Of a stretch of DNA of 24,483 nucleotides, positions 124 to 24,218 are shown piece by piece; the stretch's first letter is position 1; each line of letters begins with the position of its first letter. The notes under the pieces are model-generated. The model was not told where the DNA came from and searched no databases. It worked only from the letters and a program-made list of their open reading frames with translations. Origin of the DNA: a virus; IMG/VR virus record IMGVR_UViG_3300029309_000333, positions 1-24,483 of that record. One strand, 5' to 3'. Both the position numbers and the translations under genes were made by a program.

Positions 124-3100
124 TTATCCTTCGAGAACTGTTATTCTTGCTTCTAATTCTTGTATTGTTTTTACTAATATCGGTATTAGTTTTGATTGGT
201 CAATTGATTGCATATCTGCTCCATCTTTTTCACCAACAACTGCTTCTGGAACTATTGTTGAGACTTCATGTGCTAAAAAACCATTTTGAGTGAGACTTGA
301 ATTTTTCCACTGAAAGTTTACAGGATTCAAAGAAAGAACTTGAGATGTAGCTCCTGAAATTGCTTGCACATTTTCTTTAAGTCTATAGTCCGATGAAGTC
401 GAATATGTTGTATTAAATCCATTTGTTGTAATACTACCATGAGTAGAGTTGCTTGAGTTTTTGAATATTATATGGTGCTGAGTTATTCCACTTGAACTTG
501 TATGAGCTGTTGATTCAATATTTGGAGTACTAGTACTTGTTGTGTCTGCACCATCTAAGTGAATTGTTCTTGTTACTTCGACTTGAGAACCTAAAGTGAG
601 GATTCCTGTTGATAAACCTAAATCAAATCTTAAGTTTCTTTCTCCGCCAGAGTCATTTGCCATTGAATTAATAATATTCTGTGAAGATCCACTTGAAAGT
701 TTAATTTGATTTGTATTTGTTCCTGTTGTTGCTTTTAAAGTAGTTGCAATTAGATTTGGAACAGTTAAATCGCCTGTTAAGGTTCCTCCAGATAAATTAA
801 GTTTATCATTTGTAAGGCTTGTTAAACTTGTATCAATACTTGTTCCATTATTAAGTAAAAATGCAGCTTCAACAGTTACACTTATTGTTCCATCTCCAAC
901 ATTTGTTGTTTCTTGTCCATGAAATCTTGCTGCCCAAATTTGTTTTCCTGTTGTATTTGCGGGCAGTTCATTTAACCAAACATCAAATCCATCAGGATCA
1001 AGAGCTCCTAGTTTATCTGTTCCTCCAGAAGTTTCTACCATAGCTTGAATTGAAAAATTATAAAATTTAGTGCTTGGAAGAGCTGGAGCAGTTGTGCTTG
1101 TACTACTTCTTACATAAAAAATTTGTCCATTTATATCTCGAGGAAAGAAAACAGCAGGAGAAGTTTGTTGATATCCTCCCGAGCTTGCTGACGCGTGAAA
1201 ACTCGAAAATACTTTTACAGGAATACTTGAACTTGACCAATCTCTTCTTATCTCTCGAACATGACGTAGCCAATATTGACGAGAAATAGAAGAATCAGGA
1301 TCAACAGCCTCCACAAAAGTAGTTGCACCATTTTCAACAGTAGCTATTAAACTAATTCCTGTTAAATCTGTTAAAAAATTATCAGGAACTGCACCTGAGC
1401 CTGTTCTTGCCCAAATTTGAGTTTTATCTGTAGCAGCATTAAAACCGGTTCCATTTGACCAATCTATTGTTATTGAACTATCAGTTACTGATCCAGATCC
1501 TATTGTTGGTGGATTTACTGTTGCTTTATTTTGTAAAGATCCTATTTCTATCTCTCTTCCGAAACGAGGTTTTGCAAGATTTTTTACAGTAAATGCACTG
1601 TCATTATGTTCATCTGCGGTAACATTTATAAGACAATCTGTATTCGTGGTTACATTTGTAATACGAAACTCTTTGTTCTCATAACCGAATCGAGGATAGT
1701 TCACTCGAATTAAATTTCCAGGCAGTAGTAGTGCACCCTTCGGCATCATCTTAAATGAAATTGTTAAGCCAAATCTTGATTCATCAAGTCTTTGATTTAT
1801 GTTATATCTTGCATTATAATAATTTGTTACTCCAGGTAATCCATATTGTCCTTGTTTTGGAATATTTCTATCTTCTTTTAAATAATCAGAGTTAAAAAAT
1901 GAAACTGAACGAGCTTCAAATTTAGTTTGAGGATCAACAATACTAGTATTTACACTATTATAAGATTTTTTTAGTCCTCCGTCTTTTAATGATATAGAAC
2001 CTATAATATCTGATTCATTAATTATTTCTGGATCAACAAATGTTCCGCTACTTTTTGTTCTTATTGCTAACTCATACTTTCCATTTGAATATCGAAGTAT
2101 ACCATTGAACTGATTTAGCATTAAGTTAATGTTATCAAAAATTGGATTTGACGTTGCAATAAGTTGATTCATTTGATGACGTGTTACATTTCTTTGATCA
2201 TTTGAATCCCATCCAATATACTTCCAATACTTTACATCATCAGCATCATACAAACTATATCCAGATCCTGAAAAATCATCTGTACCAACAAATGACTTAA
2301 CGAGAGGATTACCATTTGCAGAAGCAAAACTAATATTAATATCTACTGTGGATGCTCCAGAGCCAGAAACTTTTGTAAGAGGAACAGTGCTTTGATGTGC
2401 TAAATTATTAGCAGTTCCTGATGTATGTGTTGGAGCACTTTGATTTAAAGTTTGAGTTCCTGTAGCTTTATAAACATTTCCATTATTCCAAACAAGCTCT
2501 CCAAGTTCTCTACTTTTCCAAGTTACAAATTTTCTTCCTAGTTTTCCAATCACATTTGTAAAAGTAACTTCATCATAAGGAGTACTTGATATGGTTCTTG
2601 AAGTTATAGAAGATACTGTGCCTTCGAAAAAAGCATTATCAACAGCATATTTATAAACGTCACCGACTGCTACACCTGTTGAGTCTGGAAAAACTACAGT
2701 TACATCTGATTGAGTATCACACTGTCTTGCAGCTTCTTTAAAAGTATCAAGGTTTATATCATTATCAATGTCTAAACCTCTTCCATACCTATCGCTTGTT
2801 AAATAATCAAGTAGTTGTAGGGCTGGATTTATAGATACTCGAATATCTTCTCTTCCTTTACTTAAAATATAAGTATCTCCTGTTGTTGGTGCAAATCCAC
2901 TTTCCCAAGGAAAATCTACGAGAGCAAGTCGCTGTGCTCCAATATAGTCAATAATTCTTCTCTGTTGAATATGTGGAACACCATTTGAGTCAAATCTTTT
3001 TAAAATAATTCCATAACCATTATAAAAATCATCATCAGTGCTTTCTGCAGCTTCTAAACGAATAACATCTCTAATTACAATTCCTGTTGCCCCACTATCA

Positions 3101-5442
3101 AGAGTGGACATTGTGCCTGCTCCAATATTTGATAAAACATTAGTTCCATCATAAGACCAACCTCGAATACTTCTTTTTAAAAGATCTGCTCTGCCTGAAA
3201 AAGTTATTGTTTTAGAAAAGTTAGTAAGTGCTGCATCAACAACAGCATCTGCCTCTGAAGTTGCTAATGTTATTGATAAACCAGCATTGTTGCTGCTTAC
3301 TTGATTTTGAGCAATAGTTGCACCTGATAGACTAGGAGCTGGTTGTCTGCCACTTGTAATTGTATTTGTTACGTCATTTTCTCCCGAAGAAATCGAAAAG
3401 AAGAACTTTTGAGAGGATGAGTTTTCCATGTAAAAAGGCACTGTTATTTCAGCTGTATGACTTAATCTAAATCTTGCCTCAGTATCTCCATCTAAATCAA
3501 TAAAAGTCCATTTATCAATAACTTTTATACTTGATGCAATTGTACTATTATCACTCGTTTTCTTCAATGTGACAACATCTCCTAGGTCAAAGTTATTAGC
3601 TTGACTTAAAGTGCTTCTAAAAGTATCTCTTGCATAGCTAGAATCATAATTAAAACATTTTATGCCTTTTCCTCGAACAATAAAATCTAACTCAGGAATA
3701 CTTGTTTCTCCATCTGCAATTGTATACTCTGCAACAACATATGCTGTGTCTAATAATCTATGACTTGGACCCCAATATTCTTTTGTTCCAGTAAAGTAGT
3801 CATTTTGTATTTTGAACGATGTTGATGCAGCTTTTGAAACAAGTAAAGGATCTGCATCTTGATCAGGTTTACCTGCATGAAAAATATATGTTGCTGTTAT
3901 AGGAGAAGTAAGTTTATGATATTGTTCATGTAAAACACCTGGATCTCCTACATCTGTGCTACTGCCAAAAGAAGGTGTAGGAGTATTAGATTCTACCACT
4001 CCAAAATCATTTGAATTACTGCCATCGTCCCCATTGGTTGTTAGATCAGAAATATCTTCTCCCAAATTTGGATCTGTTGTTCCTGTTGACTCTGTTATAT
4101 CTCTTCCTTGAAGTGCATCACCTTTATCCATTCTGCCTTTGCAAGTTAAATCAGCATCAGTATTTCCACTTCTTAAATCAAAATCAGCTTTATCAACACA
4201 AACACTACCAGTTCCATCAACATATAAATCTAAAAGACCTGCGACTTGACCTTCACAAATAGCATAGGCAACATATACTTTTGATGGATCAGTATTATCT
4301 GTATCAACAAAAACGGGTATTGAATCTACTTTACGAATACCGTAAACCACAGGAAGATATTTTGGTGTTAAATTAAAACCTAAATCAACTCTTCTTTGAA
4401 CAGTTGACTCAACCTCTCTTAATCTTTTTCCTCCAAACCAAAAACCATTTATATCTACTTGTTTATAACTTGTCTCTGTTGCATTATACAAAGCCATAAC
4501 ATTTATTGCTTGATTTGCGTGCATAAAACCAAAATCGCCTGCATAGTCTTCTCTGACTAAAGCGTCTGGATCTGGTATTCCTGCTGAATCTAAAGCGCGA
4601 TGTTGCTCATCAACAGTTAGTCTTCCTGATACTCTTGAAAAGTCTCCCCAGTGACTAGTTAGTGTCCATGTTATTTTTGATGTTTTAGTTGGATCTTCAG
4701 AAATAGATCCACCAGAAATTATACCTTTAAATAATAAATAAGGTTCTCCAATAATAGCATTTGTAATTGGATCAAAATGTGCTTTATAAACAAAAACTTC
4801 TCGATTAAGATATGTTTGATATGTTGTTGCAAGTTTATCTGAAATAACACCTGTGAGTTCTTCTGATACTAAATCTATTTTATATGTAACTGCACTGTCA
4901 TTGTTTGCAGTTATAGTATCAACTGCAGTATATGTAAATACATTTGCTGCAGTAAAATTTTTTATAATTACTGTTTTTGCATTGTTATTTCCACTTCCAT
5001 TTAAAACAGTAAATTTTATTTTGTCTCCCTCTTTGAACCCCTCACTTACTAAATCAATAGTGCTGCTTACAGTTATTGATTCACTTGTAAAATTTACTCC
5101 CAGAGATGTGGAAGAGGCTCCCAAACTTGCAGTATCTAAAGTAATAGACATACTACTGGCTTTAGCTTCTATAGTTTCTGTAACGGATCCAACACTTTGT
5201 AGTTTATTTGCTAAATAAGTTTGAGCACCATTTGCATTGCCCTGTTCATCTAGACTGCCATCATCAAATACAATATCAAAAGCACCGTCTGTAATATATG
5301 TGTAAGTGTTTGCTTTTTTTGATGTTTCTCCACGATCTTCATTAATCGTAGGTTTTTCAAATTTTACAAGATGTGCATAGTTAAACTCATCATTATTTAT
5401 AAGAGAGTTTTTAAGTGTGGTATTAAAACTACGAAGTGCCAT
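124..5442 (-). CDS. Giant tail hub/tip and fibre protein with C-terminal S74 chaperone domain
   Basis: This 1772-residue protein sits where central tail hub (lambda J-like) proteins lie. The N-terminal part has a FxYAHLVKFEKP-like stretch (residues 20-31) and a TDGAFDIVFDDGS segment (51-63), interrupted by a beta-rich insert at about 120-190. The middle has a SINPALQLLDYLTSDRYGRG stretch typical of hub proteins, followed by a second hub-like part and a probable fibronectin-III-like segment. The distal third is Ser/Thr/Asn/Gly-rich, as in fibres. The last ~90 residues fit the Peptidase_S74 intramolecular chaperone: SSDYRLKENV places Ser1684 and Lys1689 five apart, as in the known Ser/Lys dyad. 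The domain should help trimer folding and then cut itself off. One chain therefore seems to combine hub and receptor-binding fibre. It starts at a TAATG overlap with the upstream gene. Confidence 0.9.
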   Translation of the reverse strand: MALRSFNTTLKNSLINNDEFNYAHLVKFEKPTINEDRGETSKKANTYTYITDGAFDIVFDDGSLDEQGNANGAQTYLANKLQSVGSVTETIEAKASSMSITLDTASLGASSTSLGVNFTSESITVSSTIDLVSEGFKEGDKIKFTVLNGSGNNNAKTVIIKNFTAANVFTYTAVDTITANNDSAVTYKIDLVSEELTGVISDKLATTYQTYLNREVFVYKAHFDPITNAIIGEPYLLFKGIISGGSISEDPTKTSKITWTLTSHWGDFSRVSGRLTVDEQHRALDSAGIPDPDALVREDYAGDFGFMHANQAINVMALYNATETSYKQVDINGFWFGGKRLREVESTVQRRVDLGFNLTPKYLPVVYGIRKVDSIPVFVDTDNTDPSKVYVAYAICEGQVAGLLDLYVDGTGSVCVDKADFDLRSGNTDADLTCKGRMDKGDALQGRDITESTGTTDPNLGEDISDLTTNGDDGSNSNDFGVVESNTPTPSFGSSTDVGDPGVLHEQYHKLTSPITATYIFHAGKPDQDADPLLVSKAASTSFKIQNDYFTGTKEYWGPSHRLLDTAYVVAEYTIADGETSIPELDFIVRGKGIKCFNYDSSYARDTFRSTLSQANNFDLGDVVTLKKTSDNSTIASSIKVIDKWTFIDLDGDTEARFRLSHTAEITVPFYMENSSSQKFFFSISSGENDVTNTITSGRQPAPSLSGATIAQNQVSSNNAGLSITLATSEADAVVDAALTNFSKTITFSGRADLLKRSIRGWSYDGTNVLSNIGAGTMSTLDSGATGIVIRDVIRLEAAESTDDDFYNGYGIILKRFDSNGVPHIQQRRIIDYIGAQRLALVDFPWESGFAPTTGDTYILSKGREDIRVSINPALQLLDYLTSDRYGRGLDIDNDINLDTFKEAARQCDTQSDVTVVFPDSTGVAVGDVYKYAVDNAFFEGTVSSITSRTISSTPYDEVTFTNVIGKLGRKFVTWKSRELGELVWNNGNVYKATGTQTLNQSAPTHTSGTANNLAHQSTVPLTKVSGSGASTVDINISFASANGNPLVKSFVGTDDFSGSGYSLYDADDVKYWKYIGWDSNDQRNVTRHQMNQLIATSNPIFDNINLMLNQFNGILRYSNGKYELAIRTKSSGTFVDPEIINESDIIGSISLKDGGLKKSYNSVNTSIVDPQTKFEARSVSFFNSDYLKEDRNIPKQGQYGLPGVTNYYNARYNINQRLDESRFGLTISFKMMPKGALLLPGNLIRVNYPRFGYENKEFRITNVTTNTDCLINVTADEHNDSAFTVKNLAKPRFGREIEIGSLQNKATVNPPTIGSGSVTDSSITIDWSNGTGFNAATDKTQIWARTGSGAVPDNFLTDLTGISLIATVENGATTFVEAVDPDSSISRQYWLRHVREIRRDWSSSSIPVKVFSSFHASASSGGYQQTSPAVFFPRDINGQIFYVRSSTSTTAPALPSTKFYNFSIQAMVETSGGTDKLGALDPDGFDVWLNELPANTTGKQIWAARFHGQETTNVGDGTISVTVEAAFLLNNGTSIDTSLTSLTNDKLNLSGGTLTGDLTVPNLIATTLKATTGTNTNQIKLSSGSSQNIINSMANDSGGERNLRFDLGLSTGILTLGSQVEVTRTIHLDGADTTSTSTPNIESTAHTSSSGITQHHIIFKNSSNSTHGSITTNGFNTTYSTSSDYRLKENVQAISGATSQVLSLNPVNFQWKNSSLTQNGFLAHEVSTIVPEAVVGEKDGADMQSIDQSKLIPILVKTIQELEARITVLEG

Positions 5443-13492: not shown

Positions 13493-14865
13493 TAAATTCT
13501 CCTAGTAAATAATCTTCCCAGTGCCATTTCGGCCGCTATTTCTCGAATAGATCTATCGATCAATTTTCGAGGATCTCTTTCTGGAGTTGCCCACCGTTCA
13601 TCTCCTCGTCCCATCTCATATACTTGATAAGGATTTTTTCTATAAGTATATCCAACACTTGGATACCCTTTTGGTGTTTGTACTACTTCTGTTACTTTTA
13701 CACTATCTGCAAATCGTCCTGTTCTATTTTGTAGAGCAGGTTGTTGCATATTATCTCTTATTACTCTTGGCAGCTTTTTGTTAATCATAGCTATCATTCT
13801 CAAAAGAGTAGATGCTGGAGAATCTGCTATTTGTTTTTGTTTTGCAGCTTTTCTAACTTTAACTTTAGTATTAAGTTTAGTATTTTTTCCTCGCACTTTT
13901 GCGGCAACTGATAATACTGAACTTGATTTTACATTTTTAATTTTAGCTTTTTTAGAAACTATTGCACCAGGAACTTTTCTAAAAGGATCCATTATTTCAT
14001 TTCTTGCTTTTTTAATCTTTCTAGTTTTTAAAGAATCAGATCCTTGTAAATTTTCTAAGTTTCCTTTAGATTCTAAATAAGCATTTATTTTCTTTCTTAA
14101 ATCTTTACTTCTTAATCCTGATTTTTGTCCCTCGCTTCTATTTTTAGAGGCTGATTCTATTCTTATGATAATCATATCTTGATTATCAACTTTTTTTACC
14201 TCTAAATCTATGTCACACTCTGTTTTTAAAAATAAAATTAAGTCTGTATTATTTATTGTAGATTCAGCTTCAATCTTTGAATCTATTGCTGCCATTATTT
14301 GTTGAGTTTTTTGATCTAAAAATCTTTCAAAAACTCCTGCATCTTTTTGGTGTCCAGCATCAAAAAAGTGCATAATTGATTTTTTCTCTGAACCATCTTT
14401 ATTTGAAATTTTTTCTCTTCCTGTACTTCCAATAAAGTTTTGTAATTCAGTAAACATTTCATTCATTGAGTTTCTATATGCAAAAGTTACTCTTCTAAAT
14501 GCTGTAAAAGGAAGAAACTCTAATTTTTTCTCTCTTAGATAAGCTGGAATTGGTACATCTGTATTATTATCAAAAATTAAAGTAGATTTTCCTCCAGGAC
14601 TTTTTAGTCCTGGCTGTATCTGTTTTAGTTGTTTTATTAATTTATTACCTGCAGCATTTACTATTTTTCTTATTTCTGCTTTTTCACTCTCATCAAAATT
14701 CATTCCATGTCCTTTTGATAATTGTTTTATTGTTTCTGTAAATAAAGTTCTCTTACTAAATACAAAAGTTTGTGGTTGTCTATCTAACTCTTTTCTAAAT
14801 TCATCATAAGTTTCTAGCTCACGTTTAAATTTAGTTAAAAATGTAGCTAAATGTTTTTCTGCCAT
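13492..14865 (-). CDS. Long neck / tail-completion protein with HK97 gp10-like C-terminus
   Basis: A 457-residue basic protein. The last ~100 residues (LPRVIRDNMQQPALQNRTGR, then VGYTYRKNPYQVYEMGRGDE) resemble the small tail-completion/neck proteins of the HK97 gp10 type, normally about 110-150 residues, with the usual N-R-T-G-R-x-x-x-S core. The first ~350 residues are an extension I cannot assign: charged helices, a Lys-rich central segment (about 270-345) and a strand pair near 215-235. It lies between the head-tail connector and the tail terminator, which supports a neck role. Both ends use TAATG overlaps. The extension could be a head-tail adaptor, a decoration domain or an ejected part; I cannot say which. 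Confidence 0.7.
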   Translation of the reverse strand: MAEKHLATFLTKFKRELETYDEFRKELDRQPQTFVFSKRTLFTETIKQLSKGHGMNFDESEKAEIRKIVNAAGNKLIKQLKQIQPGLKSPGGKSTLIFDNNTDVPIPAYLREKKLEFLPFTAFRRVTFAYRNSMNEMFTELQNFIGSTGREKISNKDGSEKKSIMHFFDAGHQKDAGVFERFLDQKTQQIMAAIDSKIEAESTINNTDLILFLKTECDIDLEVKKVDNQDMIIIRIESASKNRSEGQKSGLRSKDLRKKINAYLESKGNLENLQGSDSLKTRKIKKARNEIMDPFRKVPGAIVSKKAKIKNVKSSSVLSVAAKVRGKNTKLNTKVKVRKAAKQKQIADSPASTLLRMIAMINKKLPRVIRDNMQQPALQNRTGRFADSVKVTEVVQTPKGYPSVGYTYRKNPYQVYEMGRGDERWATPERDPRKLIDRSIREIAAEMALGRLFTRRI

Positions 14866-15455
14866 TAGTAAGTTTTATATAAATCCAGAACACGTTTTAT
14901 GTGATCTGGAAAGCCTACATTATCTCTTTGACTAGTAGTAGCACTATTTTGAATACTTGCTCCTGCAATTGTTTGTCTCACTTTGTATTCGTCTTTGTGA
15001 TAGTATCGAATCAAATCAATAACTGCTAACTCTAAATCTGCAGGAGTTGATGCATATCCTGCTTTGTATACAACTTGTACTGCTCCAACTCCGATTGGAA
15101 AATTTTTATGCTTTCCAGTGTCATTAGTTCTTATGATAGTATCAGTATTACTATCTAAAAAGAACTCAAATGCACCCGTAGTAAGTGTAATATAAGATTC
15201 TGAATAACTTGTTCTTTCTTGCACACTTACAATTGAAACAATTGGACTTTCTGTAAGCTGTACAAAAGGTGTTTCAAAATCAATATTAAATGTTTCTGTT
15301 TTATTACTAGAATAAAAATCAATTATAGAATTTCCACAATAAGTTTTTACTAATTGACTTACAGAACTTACAAGAGAAGTAAGTCTTACATCTTCTTTTG
15401 TAGAAGTTATATTTTCTGCATCTTTGTAAGTTTCTAAAGTTATTAAATCAGCCAT
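14865..15455 (-). CDS. Head-tail connector (gp6-like)
   Basis: A 196-residue protein directly after the capsid gene. It begins ADLITLETYKDAENITSTKED followed by a helix with VSSVSQLVKTYCG, the pattern of HK97 gp6 / SPP1 gp15-type connector proteins that bind below the portal. A beta-rich middle is followed by a helix containing LELAVIDLIRYYHKDEYKV, also usual in this family. The family is usually 90-200 residues, so the length is in range. It follows the strong terminator at 15473-15504, so its expression should depend on read-through. The stop overlaps the next start as TAATG. No good Shine-Dalgarno sequence is seen before its ATG. Confidence 0.78.
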   Translation of the reverse strand: MADLITLETYKDAENITSTKEDVRLTSLVSSVSQLVKTYCGNSIIDFYSSNKTETFNIDFETPFVQLTESPIVSIVSVQERTSYSESYITLTTGAFEFFLDSNTDTIIRTNDTGKHKNFPIGVGAVQVVYKAGYASTPADLELAVIDLIRYYHKDEYKVRQTIAGASIQNSATTSQRDNVGFPDHIKRVLDLYKTY

Positions 15456-15521: not shown

Positions 15522-16967
15522 TTATGCGTACTCGATTCGTACTGCAGTTGCTTTACCTGAAGCGTTAGCTGCAAGTTGCTCAAATCCTAAGGACTGAGAA
15601 GCTACTATAGCAGTTCTCTGGTTTGCAATCTCTAAATCACTCTGTATACTTACACCACGTAGACGTGGAATTACAAAGTTAGAGGTATTTACAAGTAGTG
15701 CTGCAGTTGTAGTCTCTGCTCCTGATGCTCCCAACTTATTAGCTAAGAACTCACTCGCAAGAACTGGGACTCCATAAACATATCCGAGAGTACCTGTTAC
15801 ACGTGGGTTTACACCTCGTGTAGCAGCTGCGTCGTTTCCGACCTCTGCGATGTCTGCGAATCCTGCATCATCCATCAATCTGTAATACTGATCATATGGT
15901 AAGATCAATGCAAGTTGTGCTGGATCCATTCCATATTTACCCATTTCTTGTCTCAAGCTCAAGATATTTGCTGCAGATACTACATCTGACTCATCAGTTG
16001 CAGATGCATCTTTATCAGCTACTGTTGTTGAATCGGCTGCAAGGAATGAACCTGCACCGTCTGTTCCAGCGCCACCAATTAGACCTGCAATTGAAGAGTT
16101 ACCAACTAAAATAGCAGAGTCAATTGCTCTTGCATGAGCAGTTGCTAATTGTTGAGTAAGCATTGGTAATAAAGATACTATTACTTGCTCATCAGTATCA
16201 GCACCAATAAATGTTCCTGCGATTACTCGCTTTGCATTTAATACTCTCTCTTGAACTGTGTAGTTATTATCTGAGTTGTCTGTCATCATATTTTGTGAGG
16301 CAGTAATACCAGTTGAAGCAAATGTTGCTAAACCTGGCTCTGGTGCAAATGGTAGTACAGTTGCTCCAGATTGTACAGGAATCTCACGGAAAAGTTGAGC
16401 TACTTTATACTGAGCTGATACTTCTGTTTCAAACGCAGTGGTCATAGTAACATCGAGACCTACAGTTGAACCTGCCAATGAAGCAAAATCAACAGTCTTT
16501 TGTTGAAGTTGCTTAGCATAGTCTGTCTCCCATCCTTTTCCAGTTACAGTACCAAGAATCTTCGCTTGAAGAAGTTCTTTACCATGATCTTCAATTCGAC
16601 CGCTTCTGTTGTCAAAAGACTTCTTGCTATTTCTCATAGCTTCGATTTCAGAAGCTTTCTCTTTCAAGTCTTTTTCGTACTTGTCAGTGATTGCTTTGAT
16701 ATCTAGTTCTTTTTGAGCTTCAAAATCTTTTTGAACATCTGCTAGTAACTTTTCAGTACCAGACTCAATTCCAGACTTAACTTTAGACTGGATTTTTTCG
16801 GCTTCAATTGCCTTAGCAGTTTGAGCTTCTTCAGCTGCTTTTGCTTCAGCTTCTTCTGCCGCTTTTTGCTCGGCCGCTTTCATTGCAATTTTAGCAGCAG
16901 TTTCCTCTGCTACTTTTTTAGCAAAAGCTTCCAAGTCGACTTCGGGAGTTTTTGTTTCTTCCGACAT
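15522..16967 (-). CDS. Predicted nested scaffold-capsid product from an internal start
   Basis: In the same frame as the protease-capsid fusion, ATG at 16965-16967 (MSEETKTPEVDL) has AAAGGAGA six bases upstream, better than the site of the full-length gene. It would give a 481-residue protein with no protease domain: scaffold-like coiled coil plus capsid. This resembles nested in-frame scaffold genes such as lambda C/Nu3, but here the nested product includes the capsid itself. It would supply the many capsid copies while keeping protease copies low. The start is seen in sequence; its use is inference. Confidence 0.65.
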   Translation of the reverse strand: MSEETKTPEVDLEAFAKKVAEETAAKIAMKAAEQKAAEEAEAKAAEEAQTAKAIEAEKIQSKVKSGIESGTEKLLADVQKDFEAQKELDIKAITDKYEKDLKEKASEIEAMRNSKKSFDNRSGRIEDHGKELLQAKILGTVTGKGWETDYAKQLQQKTVDFASLAGSTVGLDVTMTTAFETEVSAQYKVAQLFREIPVQSGATVLPFAPEPGLATFASTGITASQNMMTDNSDNNYTVQERVLNAKRVIAGTFIGADTDEQVIVSLLPMLTQQLATAHARAIDSAILVGNSSIAGLIGGAGTDGAGSFLAADSTTVADKDASATDESDVVSAANILSLRQEMGKYGMDPAQLALILPYDQYYRLMDDAGFADIAEVGNDAAATRGVNPRVTGTLGYVYGVPVLASEFLANKLGASGAETTTAALLVNTSNFVIPRLRGVSIQSDLEIANQRTAIVASQSLGFEQLAANASGKATAVRIEYA

Positions 16968-17498
16968 ATCTATCTCCTTTGAAGAGGATTGCTCCTCGCT
17001 TTTAAAAGTTTTCTTGAAGTTTTCGTATTCCGTTTCAGAATCGAATGACTTCGCTAGAGAAAAAGTAGCTGCTTGATTGCAAGGTACCGATACAACTGAT
17101 ACTTCAAACAACTCAGCGTCCTTTATCATTAATCCGTCGGTTTCTTTCATGTAGTCAGCGTCCTTGACCTTGAAACCGACAGAAAACGCTCCAAGGACAC
17201 CGTCTTTGATTAATTCTGCACATTCAGCATGTTTACTAATTTTTGCTTCCATGTGCAAGCCATCATTCGTAGGAGTAACTTTTGTTGCTCGACCGATCGG
17301 CTTATTATAATCGTGGTTAAATAAAATAATAGGATTCTTTTCAAAATTACCTAAACCACCTTTTGTCCAAGCATCAGCAGTTATACTATCACCTGCTCTA
17401 TCAAAAGCATTTGTGCTAGCCATTCCTCGAACCATTACTGATCCATCTTCTTGTGCTTCTGACTTAAACGTAGATGTTAAATTGAATAATTTATTCAT
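15522..17498 (-). CDS. Prohead protease-scaffold-major capsid fusion
   Basis: One 658-residue frame joins three parts. Residues 1-150 match the HK97 prohead protease (peptidase U35): NHD with His62, GAFSVGF with Ser106, and a VSVVSVP strand (133-139). Residues ~150-300 are Ala/Glu/Lys-rich predicted coiled coil, like the HK97 delta/scaffold region. Residues ~310-658 are an HK97-fold major capsid protein, ending with an RGVSIQSDLEIANQRTAIVA stretch. Separate genes are the rule, so the fusion is notable. I start it at the third of three consecutive ATGs (17498), which has AGAAGG eight bases upstream; starts at 17504 or 17501 are possible. It overlaps the portal end by 8 nt. A strong internal ribosome binding site before Met178 suggests a second, shorter product. 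Confidence 0.9.
   Translation of the reverse strand: MNKLFNLTSTFKSEAQEDGSVMVRGMASTNAFDRAGDSITADAWTKGGLGNFEKNPIILFNHDYNKPIGRATKVTPTNDGLHMEAKISKHAECAELIKDGVLGAFSVGFKVKDADYMKETDGLMIKDAELFEVSVVSVPCNQAATFSLAKSFDSETEYENFKKTFKSEEQSSSKEIDMSEETKTPEVDLEAFAKKVAEETAAKIAMKAAEQKAAEEAEAKAAEEAQTAKAIEAEKIQSKVKSGIESGTEKLLADVQKDFEAQKELDIKAITDKYEKDLKEKASEIEAMRNSKKSFDNRSGRIEDHGKELLQAKILGTVTGKGWETDYAKQLQQKTVDFASLAGSTVGLDVTMTTAFETEVSAQYKVAQLFREIPVQSGATVLPFAPEPGLATFASTGITASQNMMTDNSDNNYTVQERVLNAKRVIAGTFIGADTDEQVIVSLLPMLTQQLATAHARAIDSAILVGNSSIAGLIGGAGTDGAGSFLAADSTTVADKDASATDESDVVSAANILSLRQEMGKYGMDPAQLALILPYDQYYRLMDDAGFADIAEVGNDAAATRGVNPRVTGTLGYVYGVPVLASEFLANKLGASGAETTTAALLVNTSNFVIPRLRGVSIQSDLEIANQRTAIVASQSLGFEQLAANASGKATAVRIEYA
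16965..16980 (-). promoter_or_regulatory. Internal ribosome binding site of the capsid precursor
   Basis: AAAGGAGATAGAT followed by ATG on the minus strand: near-consensus Shine-Dalgarno with 6-nt spacing, inside the protease-capsid frame. A small hairpin with a GCAA loop (16984-16997) lies just upstream. Confidence 0.7.
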
Positions 17499-18675
17499 CA
17501 TCATTACCTTCTTCTGGGGGTCGCCCACCTTGACTAGGATCTACGGCACTGCCTGCTATATTTTGTGGAATTCGTATATCATCTTGCCCTTCCATCAAAT
17601 CATACCCTAATCTATCTCTTGCTTCATTTATTGTAATAATGCCTCCGTTTACTAATGCAGTATAATAACCTGCTGCATCTCGTAGTTCGGGTTGTAGTGC
17701 TGCAATATCTGATACATCCTCTTTTATTAAAAATCCAAAGTACTTACATAAAGCATGATTAACTTTTCGTACTATTGGTATAATTGTCTCTAAATAATAA
17801 AGACGCATATTTGGACGTATATTTGCATTATTACCAGAGTCCATCAATATTGGCGGAACTCCTAGAGCTTTCAAGATAATTTTTTCATTTCGATCTATAG
17901 CATCTTGAAAATCTAATTCTTTAAAGTTTGTATTTGTGTAAGAATCTATTTCGATTCCTCCATCTAGTATAAGAGGTCTTCGACCTCCAGAGTCTGGTCT
18001 ATAACGAAGTGACCATGACTGTATCATTCTTTCTTTTATTTTTTCTGACAAAGTATTCGGGCTTTTTAACACTAGTCCTGGAACTGCTCCATTTTTAAAA
18101 AAGTTGTCTTGAAACTGTCTCATATTTGTCATAAGTTGCATTGTTCTCAATGCTGGTTTTAGTCGAGACACTCCTCTATAAATTGAATAGAAAGAGTTTT
18201 CTTTTATATGTATCATTTCATTTGGAGAATAATCTATATCATTATATCTATACTTTTCTATAAAAGTTTCAGAGTCTCCATGTATTGTTACTTTATCTGC
18301 TGGAACATGATATAAGTGTGCTCCGTCAAAGTAAATAAATATATTTCCATCAAGTAAATAATCTGTAATTAAGTTTCTTTTAAATGCACTAATATCTTGA
18401 TAAGGGTTTGGCTCATCATTAAGTAACAGTTCAACTCTAGCTCTTTTAACCCCTTTAACAACTCCAGGAGTTCGCATACTACGTAAAACTGTTGCTGGTA
18501 TTTCTGCAACATCGTCAACAATCATATTAACGCCTCTGTTGACTATTTCTAAATTTTCATAGTAAAACTCATAACTGCGAGTACTTTCTCTAGAAGATTC
18601 TTGAGATGTTCCAATATATTGCTGTATTGGATTTAGTTTTTCTCGTCGTCCAAATATTCTATCATACCAAGCCAT
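17491..18675 (-). CDS. Portal protein, HK97 family
   Basis: A 394-residue portal protein, forming the dodecameric DNA channel at one capsid vertex. The order of recognisable parts is typical of the HK97-type family: an N-terminal helical region with NRGVNMIVDDVAEIPATV, a strand pair near NEPNPYQDISAFKR and YLLDGNIFIYFDG, a KNGAVPGLVLKSP stretch, then GIEIDSYTNTNFKELDFQDA with the ALGVPPILMD clip/stem signature. The C-terminus (from about residue 370) is a disordered Pro/Gly/acidic tail, as usual. It overlaps the HNH gene by 14 nt upstream and the protease-capsid gene by 8 nt downstream. Confidence 0.95.
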   Translation of the reverse strand: MAWYDRIFGRREKLNPIQQYIGTSQESSRESTRSYEFYYENLEIVNRGVNMIVDDVAEIPATVLRSMRTPGVVKGVKRARVELLLNDEPNPYQDISAFKRNLITDYLLDGNIFIYFDGAHLYHVPADKVTIHGDSETFIEKYRYNDIDYSPNEMIHIKENSFYSIYRGVSRLKPALRTMQLMTNMRQFQDNFFKNGAVPGLVLKSPNTLSEKIKERMIQSWSLRYRPDSGGRRPLILDGGIEIDSYTNTNFKELDFQDAIDRNEKIILKALGVPPILMDSGNNANIRPNMRLYYLETIIPIVRKVNHALCKYFGFLIKEDVSDIAALQPELRDAAGYYTALVNGGIITINEARDRLGYDLMEGQDDIRIPQNIAGSAVDPSQGGRPPEEGNDDE

Positions 18676-20411: not shown

Positions 20412-20573
20412 TTATTTCTCTGTTTTTAAAAGTGTCCAGATTCCATAGCCTAGTCCTACCCAAGCTAATATTTTTGCTAATCCGCCAAAAAGTATAAATG
20501 CTCCACATACTCCGATTAACATTGCACCATCCCAAGAGGTGCGCTCTTTCATTAAGTTTTTTAAGTAGTTCAT
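20412..20573 (-). CDS. Small membrane protein, holin-like
   Basis: A 53-residue protein starting MNYLKNLMKERTSWDGAM. The N-terminal ~15 residues are charged, followed by a hydrophobic region of about 32 residues (17-49) that could be one long or two short membrane segments, ending in Lys/Glu. Its start overlaps the upstream stop as ATGA, and its stop is one base before the terminase start, so it is a real, coupled gene. The ERTSWDG opening followed by a Gly/Ala-rich membrane segment is familiar from small marine phage proteins. A holin or lysis-accessory role is possible but unproven. Confidence 0.85.
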   Translation of the reverse strand: MNYLKNLMKERTSWDGAMLIGVCGAFILFGGLAKILAWVGLGYGIWTLLKTEK

Positions 20574-21139
20574 GGTATTGCTTTCCTATTTTTGCCCCAT
20601 GCTACAAAGCCAAAGACGTACAATGCTGCCCATGCTAAGTAGTTAAGAACCTTGAAGCCATTGACTTCGATACAAATATCTCTGAATACTACATCTAACT
20701 CTTTTTGTGTCATTCTATCAGTGTGTTCGCCTGTTACCTTTTTAAGACAACCATATCGATAGCCATAATCATGTACAAGTCCTCCCATCAGTAGTACGCC
20801 TACTGGCGAAAGAAAAGTTGCAAGAAACTTTGGTACAGAAGCGCCATCAAATTGAAAGCCTGCTGGAATTACATATCCTTCACCCTTTAATGTATAGTGA
20901 AAATCTTCACACACTTTCCAATGACGAACACCGGTAATCCACATTAATATTGCTTTCCAAAAACCTTTTCCTTTTGTAGCAATAGGTATGGGTTGCATTT
21001 TTGGCATATCCATATAAGTAAAACCAACTCTCTTCTCTTCTTTTTTATCAAAAGAGTTTATAATAAATCCTACTAAAATAAGACAAATAAGTATTGTCCA
21101 CTGCCAAAAAGTCATTGCTAAATCAAGTAACATTTCCAT
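20570..21139 (-). CDS. DUF1353-like membrane protein
   Basis: A 189-residue protein with an N-terminal membrane anchor (about residues 11-30) and a likely C-terminal membrane segment (about 164-182). Between them are the two signatures I associate with DUF1353 phage proteins: FDGASVP (97-103) and LVHDYGY (121-127). The His-Asp pair suggests metal or substrate binding, but the biochemical role of the family is not known to me. It sits among the EF-hand and 53-aa membrane proteins, so a role at the cell envelope, such as lysis, is a reasonable guess. MEMLLD begins at 21139, right after the stop of the EF-hand gene. Confidence 0.82.
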   Translation of the reverse strand: MEMLLDLAMTFWQWTILICLILVGFIINSFDKKEEKRVGFTYMDMPKMQPIPIATKGKGFWKAILMWITGVRHWKVCEDFHYTLKGEGYVIPAGFQFDGASVPKFLATFLSPVGVLLMGGLVHDYGYRYGCLKKVTGEHTDRMTQKELDVVFRDICIEVNGFKVLNYLAWAALYVFGFVAWGKNRKAIP

Positions 21140-23563: not shown

Positions 23564-23770
23564 CTACATCTTGGTTAATAGTGTCACTATTACACCAGCT
23601 AGGAACAGAGTCATTGTTCCACCGATTGCTAACATCCTACTTTCTATTCGACGAAGAGCTTCTTCTACATCTGATAGACGTTGAAAACAAGTCTTCCATC
23701 TCTCTTCACACATAACTTCATGTGCTGCAAAATCTTTTTCCAGATCGTGTACTTTTTCAGTCTGTTCCAT
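23564..23770 (-). CDS. XhlA-like coiled-coil membrane protein
   Basis: A 68-residue protein. Residues 3-45 are a charged helix with heptad spacing (LEKDFAAHEVMCEERW, then QRLSDVEEALRRIESR), and residues 47-66 are a membrane segment (IGGTMTLFLAGVIVTLLT), ending in Lys-Met. This layout matches haemolysin XhlA-type proteins, phage membrane proteins that act with holins in lysis. Its ATG overlaps the terminase small subunit end by 14 nt. Lysis involvement is inference from family and topology. Confidence 0.82.
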   Translation of the reverse strand: MEQTEKVHDLEKDFAAHEVMCEERWKTCFQRLSDVEEALRRIESRMLAIGGTMTLFLAGVIVTLLTKM

Positions 23771-24218
23771 TTAGTAGTTTCTCCATAAGCTTTCCATAAT
23801 TACCTTGACCAAATGGAACACCTTCATTAATCTGTACATTGGTTTGGTTTTTAATGTTGCTGCTTTCTGCTTTTGCTAAATCGGCTTGTGCCTTGATTTC
23901 ATCCATGCGCATCTTATGCGCCATCTGTAGTAGGTCTGCTAAGTCTTTTGACGAATACACACCTGTTTCCTGCGCTTCTTCTAGTTTAGAAGCAATCATT
24001 TCATCTAAAACGGTTCCAATGTTATTCTTGTTGCGATAACCCATATCTAAGTAAACTGTGTCAATATATTTCTTTACTTCACGTTTATTTAGTATATCCA
24101 CTACTTTGTTTTCTGCAACCTGAAGATGATCACATACTCCGCGAATATTTCCGAACTGTAGATAACTATTCGCTACTTCTAGTCCCTCAGGTGAAATTGT
24201 AGTTAGTTCTTTTGCCAT
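23757..24218 (-). CDS. terS: Terminase small subunit
   Basis: A 153-residue protein. Residues 9-45 (SPEGLEVANSYLQFGNIRGV, then HLQVAENKVVDILNKREVKK) look like a winged/helix-turn-helix DNA-recognition domain, followed by long helices (about 70-125) for ring assembly and a short C-terminal part (FGQGNYGKLMEKLL) that could bind the large subunit. It would bind the packaging start site (cos or pac) and load the large subunit. Its ATG has no Shine-Dalgarno: promoter P1 ends only 7 nt upstream, so the mRNA should be leaderless or almost so. The large subunit lies about 3.3 kb downstream. Confidence 0.8.
   Translation of the reverse strand: MAKELTTISPEGLEVANSYLQFGNIRGVCDHLQVAENKVVDILNKREVKKYIDTVYLDMGYRNKNNIGTVLDEMIASKLEEAQETGVYSSKDLADLLQMAHKMRMDEIKAQADLAKAESSNIKNQTNVQINEGVPFGQGNYGKLMEKLLNGTD

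Follow-up and report, generated by a model that had tools for sequence, protein, structure and literature searches.

A single gene of a marine virus of bacteria appears to encode two nested products: we think it very probable that the phage makes a free capsid precursor in bulk, by initiation at an internal ATG, together with a minor fusion protein that carries the maturation protease. The gene lies on the minus strand of the window, the whole stretch of 24,483 nucleotides that was analysed (a 24.5-kb virus record). Internal initiation at the joint between the protease and capsid parts is strongly supported by comparison with related phages, through a conserved open frame, a conserved start codon with its Shine-Dalgarno (SD) site and a matching gene boundary in T5-like phages. 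From this arrangement we infer the ratio of the two products and the incorporation of the fusion into the shell. The features concerned are the following.

15522 to 17498, minus strand: protease-delta-capsid fusion ORF (Pfam Peptidase_S78; PHROG 80/617; PDB 8ho3/5tjt)
17052 to 17396, minus strand: Peptidase_S78 prohead protease domain (profile match, residues 45-159 counted from the GTG)
16968 to 17042, minus strand: variable linker from protease to delta domain (23-57 aa in relatives; lowest model pLDDT)
16974 to 16980, minus strand: putative internal SD site AAAGGAG, with GGAG at -10 to -7
16965 to 16967, minus strand: internal ATG (Met178), putative start of the free capsid precursor (Met in 97/97 distinct relatives)
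16497 to 16967, minus strand: coiled-coil delta (scaffold-like) domain, 157 aa (alignment to the T5-type precursor 8ho3; model helices)
16497 to 16499, minus strand: Lys codon, with predicted maturation cleavage after it (aligned with the T5 delta/mature border)
15522 to 16496, minus strand: mature capsid protein, 324 aa and 33.6 kDa predicted, plus stop (alignment to T5; fold match)
17491 to 18675, minus strand: portal protein gene, overlapping the fusion start (Phage_portal, E 1.7e-55)
14865 to 15455, minus strand: head completion protein gene, in T5-like synteny (HCP, E 1.1e-16)

The full frame of the fusion ORF runs over 15522..17528 and is opened by a GTG at 17528; candidate ATG starts are found at 17504, 17501 and 17498, and 658 aa are encoded when counting from the ATG at 17498. 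The N-terminal part matches the S78 profile (PF04586) with E 4.4e-14 and 53.4 bits, against a gathering score of 21. Within it, H72 and S116 (GTG numbering), which we take to be the catalytic His and Ser of an S78 protease, are invariant in 10/10 aligned relatives. The C-terminal part matches the T5-type capsid protein of PDB 8ho3 (E 2.2e-33). An AlphaFold model of the fusion, of moderate confidence (mean pLDDT 65.5), shows in order a beta-rich protease domain, a coil at residues 165-188, two long helices at 189-291 and an HK97 fold; confidence is low in the coil, with the lowest ten-residue block at 171-180 (pLDDT 27). When this model was searched with Foldseek, the top 8 matches were T5/DT57C chains. 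The profile, the 8ho3 match and the model thus confirm what an earlier note on this DNA had read from the letters, namely that one frame holds a protease, a scaffold-like part and a capsid protein: the ORF is an S78 prohead protease followed by a coiled-coil delta domain and a T5-type HK97-fold capsid protein.

The fusion is part of a T5-like morphogenesis block made up of large terminase, portal, fusion, head completion, tail completion, tail terminator, tail tube and further tail genes, and the small terminase is found at 23757-24218. A 1772-aa tail fibre-like protein with a C-terminal Peptidase_S74 chaperone domain is encoded at 124-5442, and its gene has the strongest SD (-12.0) among the window genes checked. 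A DUF1353 protein (PHROG tail assembly chaperone) at 20570-21139 adjoins the large terminase, and several small ORFs of no known function lie between its gene and the small terminase.

The codon for Met178 occupies 16967..16965, and 481 aa are encoded from it to the stop. It is immediately preceded by TTCAAAGGAGATAGAT, in which GGAG starts at -10; six bases separate AGGAG from the ATG, and five follow AAAGGAGA. The anti-SD duplex energy at this position is -8.7 kcal/mol, as compared to -6.1 for the best SD of the upstream fusion start. ATGs this strong number 8 among the 576 on the minus strand of the window, Met178 itself counted. The near-consensus site that the earlier note had placed ahead of Met178, with 481 residues after it, is therefore there as described, in the form of AAAGGAG.

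Relatives were collected as 104 loci, the window included, with one contributing search taken as its best 80 of 596 matches. The search patterns behind the 104 loci exclude the joint; one further pattern search included the joint peptide KPQEGNDM and so could favour loci with that Met. Both domains are covered in 101 of the 104 loci, and 97 distinct sequences were aligned. A locus without the protease part (L088) and six duplicate loci were left out of the T5-type counts, and L229 was also left out. In this set, which includes the best 80 of 596, the frame is open through the joint in 101/101 loci covering both domains (three of these were initially classed as split, owing to a stop upstream of the true start), and therefore the fusion is kept as well as the start. 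The linkers range from 23 to 57 aa and are always in frame and free of stops. The joint Met is present in 97/97 distinct relatives and GGAG is found exactly at -10 in 95/97, again with the best 80 of 596 included; the two exceptions, L017 and L018, have AAGGA-type sites in place of GGAG, with SDs of -5.7 and -8.2, respectively. Six relatives of L017 (L223-L228) are likewise fused and have the joint Met, with an SD of -5.6. L206, which is 37% identical, is fused and keeps the joint Met without an SD (-0.9); it may use another mode of starting or have lost internal initiation. Seven contigs of this phage type came from GTDB: two (L098 and L102) were binned, perhaps wrongly, into Parcubacteria and Bacteroidetes MAGs, and the other five are in MAGs named Gammaproteobacteria or Halieaceae.

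The peptide at the joint is variable, with 22 different five-residue strings such as KEIDM, QEIKM, QERHM, METDM and LETNM. In the 95 relatives with GGAG the Glu codon at the joint is always GAG, a codon used for 35% of Glu overall, and the residue preceding this Glu may be K, Q, M, E, T or L, its codon ending in G in all 95. Since GGAG and its spacing are constant while the residues and the linker length vary, selection appears to act on a ribosome site and not on the peptide. In a 28-row alignment (A2), Met178 is the sole invariant residue between F152 and T200. Conservation in relatives was the check that the earlier note had proposed, with loss of the site from a conserved protein as a refuting outcome; what we see is the opposite, the internal site being under tighter conservation than its protein surroundings.

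An SD of -7.4 or stronger is found at 91% of the 97 joints but at only 0.8% of the 1189 further in-frame ATGs that these genes contain. The combined probability of GGAG arising by synonymous choice, conditioned on the residues present and on the codon use of each gene, is about 10^-17.7 for 19 clusters at 70% identity. No synonymous recoding out of 1000 attained the observed mean SD of 21 clusters (z -7.8). When the 21 cluster representatives were examined for 63 conserved two-codon columns, the joint Glu was among the three columns with a single codon (median 0.68). Tests of individual sequences were mostly not significant (median p 0.14; 9/97 below 0.05) because Lys-Glu can encode AAGGAG by chance. 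The synonymous codon evidence is decisive only for the set as a whole, and for the whole set it rules out amino-acid constraint as the cause of the SD. The stretch that holds the SD and the start shows less pairing than the rest of the ORF (0.56 vs 0.42, p 4e-6); a weaker 70-nt folding energy at the joint than elsewhere was also sought, and no difference was seen (p 0.52). The internal SD beats the best SD of the fusion start in 69/94 relatives, but the latter is stronger in 25/94, so that the dominant product is not readable from sequence.

These results bear on a reading in which the fusion is the sole product. Each shell subunit would then bring its own protease, to be removed at maturation, and the resemblance to an SD would simply follow from conservation of the peptide, which could be, for instance, a self-cleavage site like KEIxM. 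Such a reading would agree with the strict retention of the fusion frame, with the capacity of Lys-Glu to encode AAGGAG and with an invariant Lys at the delta site. We consider it improbable, since the residues before the Met vary while GGAG and the -10 spacing stay, and the same peptides, when recoded, give far weaker SDs (0/1000). Moreover, the invariant Lys coincides with the T5-type site, 157 residues past the joint, and the capsid ORF of split relatives of the PAJU2 type (below) starts at the matching place.

The position of the internal start coincides with a gene boundary in T5-like phages. In BF23, KIT04, Kamaji and D382 the protease and capsid are encoded by separate neighbouring genes, 13-17 nt apart. 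Residue 11 of the T5-type precursor aligns at profile position 206 and the internal Met at position 188, 18 residues before, which puts the Met no more than about 8 residues from where the T5 gene starts. The window resembles phages T5 and BF23, with their prohead protease and major capsid protein D20 (pb8), in that its genes follow the order portal, protease, capsid, head completion, tail completion, tail terminator; the capsid proteins are of one family, their N-terminal delta domains measure about 160 residues, and the joint corresponds to the gene boundary. BF23 differs in having two genes parted by a stop and 17 nt, with no fusion protein, and a decoration-protein gene sits between portal and protease in that phage. 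Encoding by a gene of its own, a class feature of T5-type capsid proteins, is not what is found here, where the capsid is in one frame with the protease at 101/101 loci. Most simply, the internal start would come from a capsid gene that was once separate, its start codon having been preserved by selection since the joining. In the simplest history the stop between the two genes was lost and the capsid start kept, a direction of change that we infer. Together with the conservation of the site, this boundary supports the proposal of the earlier note that the internal start lets a capsid precursor be made.

A true gene start at this place in T5-like relatives would also be expected if the site were a relic of the ancestral capsid start, or an element for ribosome pausing or coupling, at which little initiation occurs today; L206, fused though it has no SD, fits such a reading. 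We nevertheless give it little credence. Decay of a relic would be expected over 21 clusters (70% identity), yet GGAG and its spacing hardly vary, and two further families also have a joint start; a pause site has no need for a Met at initiation spacing. That the fusion is an artefact (a missed stop or sequencing error) of the two separate genes seen in T5-like phages has next to no probability and is ruled out by a single frame at 101/101 loci and by linker lengths that differ by whole codons. A frameshift signal at the joint was also considered but not retained, as the reading frame is unbroken and an in-frame Met stands at initiation spacing.

Putative internal starts were found in other protease-capsid fusions as well. 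In Pseudomonas phage PAJU2, annotated as 'prohead protease fused capsid protein', the joint has Met197 with an SD of -10.8; the corresponding values are -8.2 for Rhizobium phage RHph_X2_26 and -6.2 for Escherichia phage JLK-2012. Among 83 loci of the PAJU2 type, 72 are fused, 10 are split and one (L145) is without the protease part; leaving out the latter and duplicates, the 72 fused loci reduce to 58 distinct ones. An ATG is found at most two columns from the joint in 58/58 of these, with an SD of -6 or stronger in 48 and of -4.4 or stronger in 56, and 0/1000 recodings attained the observed mean SD. In the ten split loci the capsid ORF has a possible start 9-192 nt past the protease stop, and the SD of this start is -6 or stronger in seven and -5.4 to -5.7 in three. 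L142, L167, L178 and L179 have both parts in one reading frame, interrupted by a stop at the joint; in L142 and L167 only a stop beside or overlapping the capsid SD parts the two frames. A quick tree of the PAJU2-type capsid core (58 fused and 11 split rows, Mcat7 included) has seven changes between the fused and split states, at least five of them forced by well-supported branches, although some of the splits could be assembly errors.

Fusions from soil phages are in one frame in 21/21 cases (for L334, just to the contig end). The joint Met is present in 20/20, with an SD of -6 or stronger in 10 and of -4.4 or stronger in 19, and 1/1000 recodings attained the observed mean SD. Loci without the protease part (L330-L333) and L334, whose contig ends in the scaffold, were left out of these counts. 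The soil-phage protease-capsid frames (L310-L334, for example L321) measure 650-1676 codons from stop to stop, and the longest may also take in upstream head genes. The S78 protease is common to the T5-type, PAJU2-type and soil families, and Phage_capsid (PF05065) is matched by PAJU2, the soil type and BF23; the capsid parts are therefore related at the family level. Independent fusion in the three families is likely but not proven.

In seven actinophage isolates, for which the joint was placed by judgement, a joint start was found in five (SDs: Circum -8.5 at Met165, Schiebs -8.9, Jeanie -6.6, RRH1 -5.7, Toulouse -5.8) and a weak one in Whytu (-3.9); in Idaho no clear joint start was found. 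Fusions with a ClpP-type protease (F10, Gifsy-2) have a candidate Met after 'EEFxx' in 66/66, with a mean SD of -6.8; the Glu codons are not constant, however, and a different conserved Met in this family has the stronger mean score, -10.1. ES18, considered as a possible fusion, was rejected on its annotation, as were SfII and Mcat7, each annotated with two genes.

To return to the nested start, the favored reading, initiation at 17498 (or 17501/17504) would yield a 70-kDa protease-delta-capsid fusion, and initiation at the internal ATG at 16967 a 51-kDa delta-capsid precursor. Since there is no stop at the joint, each upstream initiation would give the fusion, and the protease could enter the shell solely within a capsid subunit or after cleavage. 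Most of the shell would consist of the free precursor. The fusion, as a minor shell subunit, would co-assemble by means of the delta and capsid parts that it also has, which would keep the number of proteases entering the prohead smaller and under control. Inside the prohead the protease would cut after a conserved Lys, converting all subunits to the 34-kDa capsid protein and freeing delta and protease-delta fragments. This Lys (K334 in the numbering from ATG 17498) is 157 residues downstream of the internal start, at the T5-type site; it is present in 95/95 relatives reaching the delta/mature border, and the other 2 of the 97 have a gap there. Cleavage after K334 should give a mature protein of 324 aa and 33.6 kDa, along with pieces of 17.4 kDa (delta) and 36.8 kDa (protease-delta). 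In the T5-like phage DT57C the capsid is without its first 160 residues, according to the accessible part of PMC10713586. Of the forms of about 70, 50 and 38 kDa that the earlier note had listed, the first two agree with the computed fusion and precursor, but the mature protein would be about 34 and not 38 kDa. The same note had suggested release of free protease by self-cleavage; cleavage at the known delta site, if that is the one used, would leave the delta domain on the freed protease (about 37 kDa), with no cut at the Met junction.

Many annotations of protease-capsid fusions imply a protease on each of hundreds of shell subunits, and a conserved nested start would solve this problem of many shell parts and few enzymes. 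The single-product annotation of such genes is probably incomplete. We lean towards the view that a nested start for free capsid protein is a general rule in phages with fused S78 protease and capsid genes: several families would keep or acquire it, and the fused and split states would interchange (five to seven changes in the PAJU2-type tree) while the start stays. Setting the ratio through two ribosome sites on one message would be a previously unrecognised way of dosing a maturation protease into a virus shell, and one that is easily tested. The nested start would also fix the N-terminus of the capsid precursor, as is needed for structural and mass-spectrometry work on fusion phages.

That protease-capsid fusions were already known, as the earlier note had said, is borne out by PAJU2, MD8/F10 and actinophage cases. 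Single protease-scaffold-capsid genes have been reported for MD8-like phages (PMC8508860) and for phages of Arthrobacter, Gordonia, Rhodococcus and Microbacterium (PMC5513430, PMC7302621). In the accessible parts of these three papers there is no mention of an internal start, and the word 'internal' is absent from those of PMC8508860 and PMC7302621. No report of a nested capsid-protein start in protease-capsid fusions was found in the open-licence literature, which is not proof of absence. Passage searches of PMC4936722, PMC5037462, PMC11131426, PMC8758107 and PMC12760985 gave nothing relevant to such a start. The gene described here resembles those of PAJU2, MD8/F10, Arthrobacter phage Circum and other actinophages in combining protease, scaffold and capsid, but the protease of MD8/F10 is of the ClpP type and that of the window is S78.

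Herpesvirus UL26/UL26.5 also pairs a long form, protease and scaffold, with a nested short form, the scaffold; however, these come from separate transcripts, and the capsid protein is not part of the product. The closest precedent is lambda C/Nu3, in which a protease-bearing long form contains an in-frame, 3' nested short scaffold form without the protease. With a conserved putative ribosome site and start inside a longer gene, the joint would be a nested in-frame start of this type, and in both systems the protease can ride in on the shared domains. Lambda's nested product is only the scaffold, and its capsid protein E has a separate gene, whereas here the nested product would be the shell protein itself. 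The proteases also differ, that of the window being S78 and lambda C being given as S49 type in the accessible part of PMC10695390, which lists both the C and Nu3 genes.
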